Shown piece by piece: positions 37,874-39,512 of a stretch of DNA of 64,000 nucleotides. Source of the stretch: Psychroserpens jangbogonensis (GTDB taxonomy: Bacteria > Bacteroidota > Bacteroidia > Flavobacteriales > Flavobacteriaceae); contig NZ_JSWG01000011.1 in the NCBI RefSeq assembly GCF_000797465.1, positions 62,001 through 126,000 of the forward strand, given 5' to 3'. Below the pieces are notes generated by a model. The model was not told the origin of the DNA. It saw only the letters and a list, made by a program, of their open reading frames with translations, and did not search any database. Both the position numbers and the translations under genes were made by a program. Every line of letters begins with the position of its first letter. The first letter of the stretch is position 1.

Positions 37874-38689
37874 TTAAACAGCTACATCGTATTCACGTAA
37901 AGCATCATTAAGAGAAGTCTTTTTATTAGTACTCTCTTTACGCTTTCCAATAATTAAGGCACAAGGCACATTGTATTCTCCTGCAGGAAACGTTTTTGTA
38001 TAGCTCCCAGGAATAACTACAGAGCGTTCTGGTACAATACCTTTCATTTCAACTGGTTCATCACCAGTAACATCAATGATTTTTGTACTCATGGTCAAAA
38101 CGACATTAGCTCCTAATACAGCTTCTTTTTCAATGCGTACACCTTCAACTACAATACATCGTGAACCTATAAATGCACCATCTTCTATAATTACTGGTGC
38201 AGCTTGTAAAGGTTCTAAAACACCTCCAATGCCAACACCTCCAGATAGATGTACATTTTTTCCAATTTGCGCGCAGCTACCAACTGTAGCCCAAGTGTCA
38301 ACCATTGTACCTTCATCAACATAAGCACCAATATTTACATAACTAGGCATTAAAATAGTTCCAGGAGATATGTAAGCACCATGTCTTGCTACAGCATTTG
38401 GCACAACACGAATACCTTTCTTTTTATAGTCACGTTTTAATGGAATTTTATCATGATACTCAAAAATACCAGCTTCTAGGGTTTCCATTTTTTGAATAGG
38501 AAAATATAAAACAACAGCTTTTTTAACCCATTCATTTACTTGCCAACCATTTTCAGTTGGTTGTGCAACTCTTAAAGTACCTTCGTCTAAAAGGTCTATA
38601 ACGGTTCGTATACTTTTAATGGTTACTTCGTTAGTTAGAAGAGAACGGTCGTTCCAGGCATCTTCAATATACTGTTGTAATTCTTTCAT
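37874..38689 (-). CDS. dapD: 2,3,4,5-tetrahydropyridine-2,6-dicarboxylate N-succinyltransferase
   Basis: The protein has 271 residues. The N-terminal helical part (MKELQQYIEDAWNDRSLL) is followed by left-handed beta-helix repeats (VVPNAVARHGAYISPGTILMP, VNIGAYVDEGTMVDTWATVG, QIGKNVHLSGGVGIGGV) and the RSVVIPGSYTK segment. It carries out the succinylation step of the lysine/diaminopimelate pathway, feeding peptidoglycan. TATCTTTG on the minus strand (38718-38711) is a good -7 box 22 nt before the ATG. Confidence 0.97.
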   Translation of the reverse strand: MKELQQYIEDAWNDRSLLTNEVTIKSIRTVIDLLDEGTLRVAQPTENGWQVNEWVKKAVVLYFPIQKMETLEAGIFEYHDKIPLKRDYKKKGIRVVPNAVARHGAYISPGTILMPSYVNIGAYVDEGTMVDTWATVGSCAQIGKNVHLSGGVGIGGVLEPLQAAPVIIEDGAFIGSRCIVVEGVRIEKEAVLGANVVLTMSTKIIDVTGDEPVEMKGIVPERSVVIPGSYTKTFPAGEYNVPCALIIGKRKESTNKKTSLNDALREYDVAV

Positions 38690-38710
38690 TTTAATTATTG
38701 TCAGTTTTCA

Positions 38711-38718
38711 CAAAGATA
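38711..38718 (-). promoter_or_regulatory. Predicted -7 box of dapD
   Basis: Minus strand TATCTTTG matches TAnnTTTG, giving a leader of about 16 nt. No clear -33 element. It does not overlap the small-RNA promoter at 38769. Confidence 0.5.
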
Positions 38719-38768
38719 AGTCTATAAAATTCTTGTCATAATTTCTAATTCAGAAAAAAATAAAAAAA

Positions 38769-38799
38769 GATGTGACCTATTTAAAAAGATGGTGTCTTA
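38769..38799 (+). promoter_or_regulatory. ECF-type promoter, unit 1 of a tandem pair
   Basis: GATGTGACC (38769-38777), N14, GTGTCTTA (38792-38799). Reading ACC as the -35 core and GTC as the -10 core, the spacing is 16 nt, usual for ECF sigma promoters. The same element with identical spacing recurs at 38935-38965, and 15 bases around the -35 part (AAAAAAGATGTGACC) are the same in both. It does not fit the TTTG/TAnnTTTG housekeeping pattern. Confidence 0.5.
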
Positions 38800-38802
38800 T
38801 AA

Positions 38803-38912
38803 TTGTGATTATTATTGTTCTTGTGTTATCCTTAATACAAACACTTGATTTCTTTAATAATTAATAGCTAATTTTTAAAACACCTTTCTTACCCTGGAAG
38901 GGTGTTTTTTTT
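38803..38912 (+). ncRNA. Predicted small RNA 1 (about 110 nt)
   Basis: The segment runs from the expected start just after the 38769-38799 promoter to the terminator at 38877-38917. No ORF of useful length is present. dapD leaves to the left and ruvX to the right, so a terminator here has no neighbouring gene to serve, which argues for an independent transcript. The 3' part, from an AATTAATAG-like stretch into TTTTAAAAC and the terminator loop, resembles the same part of small RNA 2. Not tested. Confidence 0.45.
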
Positions 38913-38917
38913 TTTTT
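38877..38917 (+). terminator. Intrinsic terminator of small RNA 1
   Basis: Stem AAAACACC (38877-38884) with GGTGTTTT (38901-38908), extended by CTT/AAG across an internal bulge, followed by a run of 13 T residues ending at 38917. Confidence 0.85.
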
Positions 38918-38934
38918 AAAAAATTTATAAAAAA

Positions 38935-38965
38935 GATGTGACCCTATTCATAATCATGTGTCTTA
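38935..38965 (+). promoter_or_regulatory. ECF-type promoter, unit 2 of a tandem pair
   Basis: GATGTGACC (38935-38943), N14, GTGTCTTA (38958-38965): same words and same spacing as unit 1, 166 bp upstream. The intervening 14 bases differ between copies, so the two boxes are selectively conserved. Confidence 0.5.
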
Positions 38966-38969
38966 AAAG

Positions 38970-39073
38970 TATAACATGAACTGTTTAAAGTAGAGGGTAA
39001 ACTAGTTTATGGATAATTATTAATGGTTGATTATTTTAAAACGCTTCTTTGACCTTCAAAGAGGCGTTTTTTT
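38970..39073 (+). ncRNA. Predicted small RNA 2 (about 105 nt)
   Basis: It runs from just after the second ECF-type promoter to the terminator at 39038-39073. There is no coding potential beyond a five-codon ATG frame. It shares with small RNA 1 an AT-rich body, a TTTTAAAAC entry into the terminator stem and an ACC-containing terminator loop, so the two look like a tandem duplication. Target unknown. Confidence 0.45.
39038..39073 (+). terminator. Intrinsic terminator of small RNA 2
   Basis: Stem AAAACGCTTCTTTG (39038-39051), loop ACCTT, stem CAAAGAGGCGTTTT (39057-39070), one U-G wobble, then T residues. It ends 25 nt before the ruvX start codon. Confidence 0.88.
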
Positions 39074-39086
39074 GTTTTTTAACAAT

Positions 39087-39094
39087 TACCTTTG
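39087..39094 (+). promoter_or_regulatory. -7 box of ruvX placed for a leaderless mRNA
   Basis: TACCTTTG matches TAnnTTTG exactly and is followed by CAAT and the ATG at 39099. It lies after the small RNA 2 terminator, so ruvX needs its own promoter here. Confidence 0.5.
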
Positions 39095-39098
39095 CAAT

Positions 39099-39512
39099 AT
39101 GGCGAGAATACTAGCAATTGATTATGGTACAAAGCGTACAGGAATAGCTGTGACAGATGAGTTACAGATTATTGCCTCTGGTTTGACGACAGTAGATACT
39201 AAAGAATTAATAGGGTTTTTAAAGACCTATTCTTCGGAAGAATCGGTTGAGTTATTTATTGTAGGAGAACCGAAACAAATGAATTTTGAAGCCTCTGAAA
39301 GTGAAGTGTCAATTTCTAAATTTTTAGAAAAATTAGAAAAAGCTTGTCCAGATATTCCTATTAAACGAATTGATGAACGTTTTACATCTAAAATGGCATT
39401 TCAAACCATGATTGATAGCGGACTTAATAAAAAGCAACGTAAGAATAAAGCCTTAGTTGATGAGATTAGTGCTACAATCATCCTTCAAAGTTACCTTTAT
39501 AATCAATCTTAA
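39099..39512 (+). CDS. ruvX: YqgF/RuvX-family Holliday junction resolvase-like nuclease
   Basis: The protein has 137 residues from ATG 39099. A longer in-frame reading from 39027 would pass through the terminator hairpin and is rejected. RNase H-like motifs: RILAIDYGTKRTGIAVTD at the start (catalytic Asp), LFIVGEPKQMNFE in the middle, IKRIDERFTSKMA and a final KNKALVDEISATIILQSYL (Asp). YqgF proteins process 16S pre-rRNA ends in several bacteria and were first named after resolvases. It is followed by def. Confidence 0.95.
   Translation: MARILAIDYGTKRTGIAVTDELQIIASGLTTVDTKELIGFLKTYSSEESVELFIVGEPKQMNFEASESEVSISKFLEKLEKACPDIPIKRIDERFTSKMAFQTMIDSGLNKKQRKNKALVDEISATIILQSYLYNQS

Follow-up and report, generated by a model that had tools for sequence, protein, structure and literature searches.

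What is served by two promoters and two transcription terminators that lie between divergent genes and appear to belong to neither? The question is raised by the 409 bp that separate two house-keeping genes, dapD (37874-38689, minus strand) and ruvX (39099-39512, plus strand), both Pfam-confirmed, in the 64-kb window analysed here, by which we mean the whole stretch of DNA (G000:C3:62001-126000; genome total 3.63 Mb). The source is a marine bacterium whose genus, represented here by 23 genomes, we call Psychroserpens (Flavobacteriaceae). By eye, a TAnnTTTG box stands upstream of both genes, and this motif is the house-keeping -7 element according to the accessible text of two reports (PMC9723704; PMC7366714). 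With a box of its own neither gene needs the ECF-type promoters, and in the case of ruvX it is the sequence TACCTTTG (39087-39094, plus strand), read by eye against the consensus in the accessible text of PMC9723704, that is likely to be the house-keeping -7 box, apart from the neighbouring RNA unit. An initial annotation had placed two paralogous small RNAs here, each with an ECF-type promoter and a T-tailed hairpin, and had suggested that relatives be searched for the element and the gap, and that both units be compared with Rfam. It had also stated that the flanking genes do not reach these terminators, which is borne out here.

Direct reading returned GATGTGACC-N14-GTGTCTTA twice on the same strand and 166 bp apart, exactly as had been annotated. 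The promoter of the unit on the dapD side (U1) spans 38769-38799 on the plus strand, with the -35 box GATGTGACC at 38769-38777, a 14-nt spacer, and the -10 box GTGTCTTA at 38792-38799. That of the unit on the ruvX side (U2) spans 38935-38965 on the plus strand and is built in the same way (GATGTGACC at 38935-38943, 14-nt spacer, GTGTCTTA at 38958-38965); transcripts would start near 38805 and 38971, respectively. When up to three mismatches were allowed the window held two matches, both exact, compared to a mean of 0.10 in 100 dinucleotide shuffles of the window, one of which reached two. The exact pattern is confined to these two copies in the whole genome and its reversal is absent, and a chance pairing of the boxes was ruled out by the shuffles together with the absence of the reversed pattern. 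Among 53 unit promoters of the genus, collected by means of the box pattern, GTGAC is invariant, GTGTC nearly so, and most box columns approach 2 bits, an invariance that is partly by construction since the boxes belonged to the search pattern. The spacers vary except for an A-rich middle and a T, and the promoter-like contrast between conserved boxes and differing spacers, noted before in the two copies, thus recurs across the genus with that reservation.

U1 is a predicted small RNA of ∼108 nt (38805-38912, plus strand, ends inferred), supported by fold, covariation and conservation, in which 20 sequences display the order outer stem, inner stem, linker AAUUAAUAGCUAAUUUU and terminator. Its hairpin domain (38807-38862, plus strand) combines an outer 8-bp stem (38807-38814 with 38855-38862), 100% paired and with no pair altered on both sides, and an inner stem (38822-38827 with 38840-38845), 92.5% paired, in which five of the six pairs show changes on both sides in at least one of the sequences. 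The linker AUUAAUAGCUAA (38860-38871, plus strand), whose first letters overlap the outer stem, is identical in 20 of 20 aligned U1 sequences, the ends of which were set by locating the linker, present in all 20; a U1 remnant in genome G002 lies outside this alignment. We predict this linker to be the seed for the leader of mscS, a channel gene introduced below, and the complement of the 5' end of a further RNA kind, S3. A terminator hairpin (38877-38908) with its T run completes the unit (38877-38917, plus strand). U2, predicted from fold and covariation to be a small RNA of ∼103 nt with ends at about 38971 and 39073 (plus strand), is matched strongly by its model at 21 of the 23 genus loci, and these 21 sequences have in common a stem-loop whose G-rich loop is conserved, a linker related to that of U1, and a terminator. 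The stem-loop occupies 38975-39011 (plus strand), with a loop that reads AAGGUAGAGGGU in most species and AAAGUAGAGGGU in the window, and the terminator hairpin with its T run 39038-39073 (plus strand; hairpin 39038-39070), with a helix of 14 pairs that is 97.9% paired. Both of the T-tailed hairpins that had been described downstream of the boxes are accordingly present on the plus strand, where the region 38300-39500 contains four terminator-like sites, overlapping ones included, compared to 0.6 expected.

Both units fold far better than shuffled sequence, with z-scores of -5.64 (U1) and -5.20 (U2) and none of 200 shuffles as stable for either. On the minus strand U1 reaches -1.49 (18 of 200 shuffles as stable) and U2 -5.15, the latter folding almost equally because of hairpin symmetry. 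Cells altered on both sides of a pair numbered 38 in U1 (12.9 in shuffles) and 16 in U2 (4.6 in shuffles), values matched by none of 500 shuffles in either unit, and the covariation score exceeded all 500 shuffles for both and dropped when partners were slid by one to three columns. One of the five covariation measures for U1, further pair types, was not above shuffles (239/500), and all of these shuffles ignore the relatedness of the species. The longest complete frames cover 7-21 codons in the 20 U1 and 2-19 in the 21 U2 sequences, mostly with GTG or TTG starts, and no ORF of constant length is kept among them when complete frames inside the unit are counted. A small protein was ruled out by this lack of a conserved frame, in agreement with the earlier remark that no ORF fits. 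An own promoter, an intrinsic terminator, no kept ORF and compensatory changes, by which independent sRNAs may be judged, were all found for the units, and we consider them with high confidence, on the strength of sequence, to be RNA genes with promoters of the ECF class.

A query with RuvX located ruvX in all 23 genus genomes, and the boxed units in the stretch upstream of ruvX number two in 8 genomes, three in 12, one in G002 and none in G007 and G022. The proposed search for element and gap in relatives thus found both boxes kept, with at least two boxed units at the dapD-ruvX place in 20 of 23 genomes. The constant members of the array are U1 on the dapD side and U2 on the ruvX side; U1 was found in 19 of the 23 gaps, and G015 has it next to dapD on a different contig. 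A middle unit, U3, is present in 13 genus genomes, and the alignment of 11 of these (L043 and L053 were omitted as divergent) revealed no conserved helix other than the terminator. By eye, G001, G004 and G020 have an additional unit that shows no clear box. In G015, U1 lies beside dapD (L016) and U2 with a middle unit beside ruvX on a different contig (L053), which makes the units separable.

In the family, the U1 model (R1) matched at least 5 and the U2 model (R2) at least 6 of 397 genomes, three of each within the genus, counts that are lower bounds because filters were strict and nine candidates were scored in each genome. From 59 ruvX places in a family sample 30 were taken as loci, 28 of them outside the genus, and boxed units stand within 700 nt in five of these 28 (G051, G027, G069, G030 and G037); 23 of the 28 had a recognisable DapD, and the contig of L103 stops next to ruvX. 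Two more genera with units (G162 and G143) came from other searches. In L119 (G030), L118 (G069), L122 (G037) and L146 (G143) we observed boxed, hairpin-ended units before ruvX with an RNA too divergent for a clear model match, and L119 and L146 contain a GGTTGGTTAGTTAG-like stretch. In other genera (L099, L101, L102 and L107-L110) the dapD-ruvX gap extends to ∼700 nt and holds, by eye, a small ORF with a signal-like start.

The claim that the two RNAs are paralogous has to be worded with more caution. U1 and U2 have the same architecture, the same promoter and related linkers, and the U2 linker of G027 reads AATTAATAGCTAATT, as in U1. The cross-matches of the models in the window are moderate (R1 to U2, E 0.017; R2 to U1, E 0.0067). 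At many loci the models match each other's units over linker and terminator at E 0.00016-0.08, with values of 0.002-0.06 also at the unrelated L112 and L104, the former reaching E 0.0024 with unit models. On sequence, a common origin of U1 and U2 is likely, and rests more on the shared plan, promoter and linker than on these model matches.

The other genes that carry the box point to the sigma factor that would read it. A relaxed box has 12 sites in the source genome and none when reversed, and these precede U1, U2 and genes for an OmpA-family protein, a PAS histidine kinase, an aquaporin (MIP), an ECF sigma factor and a DUF2853 protein, as well as an acetyltransferase-like frame and a secreted protein (both by eye) and the RNA-like stretches L093 and L094. 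The remaining site, which falls within a gene of the opposite strand, is probably due to chance. Pfam confirmed the ECF, OmpA, MIP, DUF2853, PAS-kinase and MscS-type (PF05552) proteins, and in sequence the ECF protein matches RpoE, SigH and SigW. L094 (996-1180, contig C61 of the same genome) is boxed and ORF-free, has a strong hairpin with a T run, and lies upstream of a gene that by eye is copper-oxidase-like. The kind of genes sharing the box makes the units candidate stress-response RNAs, and it is on this kind that the link to stress rests.

The exact pattern GTGACY-N14/15-GTGTCTTA occurs in 83 of 299 family genomes (73 of 236 genera), with 214 sites compared to 10 for the reversed pattern. 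In 30 family box loci, one per genome, the box stands before the ECF ortholog in seven, and before homologs of the DUF2853, OmpA and PAS-kinase genes in one each. An ECF ortholog (68-99% identity) was found in 27 of 30 chosen genomes, and the box before it is exact in 20 of the 27 operons (19 with N14, one with N15) and changed by one letter in six, two of which read GTGTCTAA (L199 and L200), L201 being not assessable. This strengthens the assignment of the promoters to the ECF type, since 26 of 27 operons have that box, perfect or with a single substitution, ahead of their ECF sigma gene. The ECF gene looks autoregulated through that box, and because the box is the same we name this sigma factor as the reader of the U promoters; that an orthologous RpoE-type ECF sigma factor reads them is put forward with fair confidence. 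The operon has the order ECF sigma gene, 57-aa ORF and MscS-type channel gene in 26 of 27 cases (L201 was unreadable). The 57-aa ORF between the ECF gene and mscS (L092, 1955-2128) is conserved in the 26 operons and has no NCBIfam match; its product may be an anti-sigma factor or an accessory protein.

Genomes that naturally lack the sigma gene are informative in this respect. Three of the 23 genus genomes (G002, G007 and G022) have no ECF ortholog, their best matches being paralogs of 29-31% identity. All 20 genus genomes with the gene have at least two boxed units, compared to one, none and none in the three without it: G007 and G022 show neither a boxed unit nor a U1 or U2 model match at the locus, and G002 has a U1 remnant of 42 bits (87-134 elsewhere) and a good boxed U2 of 99 bits (85-120). 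This joint loss may reflect very few independent events. In G008 (L196) the ECF frame is apparently shifted near its start, yet the units persist, and the site in the mscS leader is absent.

This site makes mscS the predicted target of U1. Between the 57-aa ORF and mscS lies a variable, AT-rich spacer (21-45 nt including the stop codon), which contains AGCTATT in 17 and GCTATTA in 16 of 20 genus species, the latter ending 12-21 nt before the mscS start codon and 17 or 18 nt before it in 12 of the 16. When the spacers were shuffled in 2000 rounds, a 7-mer containing both G and C was common to four species at most, a comparison to be read with the knowledge that the site was noticed after the fact and that shuffles ignore species relatedness. 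Read in reverse complement, GCTATTA is contained in the U1 linker AUUAAUAGC. When U1 was paired with the mscS leader of its own genome, 0-5 of 300 single-base shuffles were as good in 17 of 20 genomes; the test failed in G001 (26/300), G008 (16/300) and G012 (143/300). In the source genome mscS ranks first of 62 leaders for pairing with U1, the other 61 being those of mechanical ORFs of at least 120 codons within the window. In predicted ensembles the seed AATAGCTA is partly unpaired (0.35-0.76). GCTATTA is absent from the mscS leaders of three genomes of other genera that bear U units, G162, G051 and G027 (the last has CTATTAAT), and the target is therefore supported within the genus only; within it, we regard mscS as a target of U1 with moderate confidence. 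The sequence complementary to the U2 loop, ACCCTCTA, is found nowhere else in the window, and its presence in the mscS leader of G162 may be chance.

We propose that the units are ECF-driven sibling trans-acting sRNAs that form a noncoding arm of the sigma response and most likely act on mscS, a reading in which transcription itself is inferred and to which we assign a probability of roughly 0.78. According to this proposal, an autoregulated RpoE-type ECF sigma factor would transcribe U1 and U2 from separate copies of its promoter, each transcript would stop at its intrinsic terminator, and the U1 linker AAUUAAUAGCUAAUU would pair with the mscS leader ∼17 nt before the start codon. Pairing would block translation of mscS, which comes third in the sigma operon (repression being the predicted sign), and channel output could thereby be limited or postponed during production of the sigma factor.

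It could also be hypothesized that the units are real RNAs with other mRNA targets or a protein partner, and that GCTATTA is an element of the mscS leader's own, acting in translation or stability. Its position 12-21 nt before the start codon is where a translation element might be found, conserved loops of U1 (UUCCCUAA) and U2 (AGAGGGU) were left with no partner found, and G162 and G051 bear U units while lacking the mscS site. The heptamer, however, matches the invariant part of U1, and the mscS leaders of G070 and G228, two genomes in which the U models had no match, lack it. We take this alternative seriously while leaning against it.

A second kind of RNA shares the promoter. S3 is a short unit that begins with UGCUAUUA, and this start copies the mscS site, so that UAAUAGC of U1 and its siblings could be titrated by an ECF-driven S3 in a sponge circuit. 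Its pattern was found in 5 of 23 genus genomes (control 0) and in 13 of 397 family genomes (11 of 237 genera; 16 hits compared to 3 reversed). Seventeen of the 19 loci inspected look short and hairpin-ended by eye. Pairing of the S3 5' end with the U1 linker was equalled by 0-4 of 500 shuffles in five of five genomes, and that with U3 by 4 and 0 of 500 in the two tested. Against a sponge, S3 pairs weakly with U2 (equalled by 20-58 of 500 shuffles), 18 of the 23 genus genomes are without S3 under the strict pattern, at least 15 of them bearing U units, S3 also occurs in genera where the U models gave no match, and two loci, L163 and L174, are mRNA leaders. We find a sponge rather unlikely; S3 may be a decoy, for which our confidence is low, or an independent sRNA with targets of its own. 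As S3 candidates we list L093 (1343-1436, contig C62 of the source genome), L156-L162 and L164-L173, and by eye about 12 of the 17 short loci adjoin one of two recurring neighbour genes on the opposite strand.

The position of U2 immediately upstream of ruvX, on the same strand and with a terminator in between, would suit a 5' leader that attenuates ruvX, with U1 as a relic of its duplication. This is highly improbable, as ruvX has, by eye, the TAnnTTTG box mentioned above after the U2 terminator, U1 can lie away from ruvX, and promoter, linker and plan are common to both units. U1 itself as a ruvX leader was ruled out by G015, where it stands beside dapD on a separate contig. Functionless chance repeats deserve next to no credence given that boxes, covariation and synteny are conserved in many species.

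How do the proposed sibling sRNAs relate to known systems? The sigma-E sRNAs of E. coli and Salmonella use Hfq, and a search for Hfq (PF17209), which as a control found Hfq rings in 5 of 14 known genomes, gave no match in the source genome. The suggested comparison with Rfam produced no window match above the gathering threshold, the best of 33 sub-threshold matches scoring 27.9 bits at a cut-off of 65. A known RNA family was ruled out by Rfam on the window and on six loci with S3 or similar units. According to the accessible text of PMC11005410, MicA, RybB and MicL of E. coli and Salmonella resemble the present case in that an RpoE-type ECF sigma factor has a coding arm and a noncoding arm of several sRNAs, and differ in targeting outer-membrane protein mRNAs, whereas the target predicted here is the channel gene of the sigma operon. 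Unlike them, the units described here are tandem siblings in a genome where no Hfq was found, and their sequences, compared via Rfam only, gave no match. FoxI and FoxJ of Fusobacterium nucleatum are likewise two sRNAs of one sigma-E outside the Proteobacteria, with feedback on the sigma regulon, but have C-rich seeds and porin targets and belong to another phylum, and the text accessible to us describes no tandem arrangement (PMC11005410). The same text places sigma-E noncoding arms in Proteobacteria and Fusobacteriota (PMC11005410).

Closer in phylogeny, the FopS family with GibS of Bacteroides thetaiotaomicron comprises 14 paralogous sRNAs in the same phylum, some with the promoter motif PM2 (accessible text of PMC11697453), for which recognition by an alternative sigma factor has been proposed (accessible text of PMC7366714). 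They differ in that they repress SusC-like transporters, bind RbpB and mostly have different promoters, and the accessible text shows no ECF autoregulation (PMC11697453); the GibS model of Rfam scored 18.7 bits on the window at a cut-off of 115. In the same family of bacteria, Flavobacterium psychrophilum has Rfp11 and Rfp18, the former expressed from the ECF-like promoter class SM6 (accessible text of PMC9723704). SM6 is described there with a CGT box at -10 and with T9SS genes (PMC9723704), whereas the -10 box here is GTGTCTTA and the genes are others; the RNAs themselves were compared by description only. Adjacent paralogous sRNA genes are also represented by OmrA/OmrB, PrrF1/PrrF2 and AbcR1/AbcR2 (accessible text of PMC4211561). 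These belong to other phyla and regulators, whereas the genus arrays have up to three boxed units. In the accessible parts of the open-licence literature we found no description of this motif, operon or array, and no ECF-linked sRNA array in Bacteroidota; the Bacteroidota sRNAs with an ECF-like promoter in that literature are Rfp11 (PMC9723704) and possibly the PM2 members of FopS (PMC11697453). Our confidence in ECF-driven siblings acting on mscS is slightly lowered by the failure of the target outside the genus, by the moderate outcome of the sibling comparison, and by FopS, through which paralogous sRNAs are already present in the phylum. More speculatively, these elements could form a circuit in which no Hfq is detected, where the sigma factor drives its own operon, sibling sRNAs that shut off mscS and an S3 decoy, with the number of siblings tuning the circuit, an extension that we deem distinctly unlikely.

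In conclusion, one conserved promoter links a sigma gene, a pair of RNAs and their candidate target, and natural absence of the sigma gene accompanies loss of the units. This opens tests of sRNA action in bacteria without a detected Hfq, and of sRNA control over a mechanosensitive channel. An RNA stress circuit would thereby become testable in an understudied phylum.
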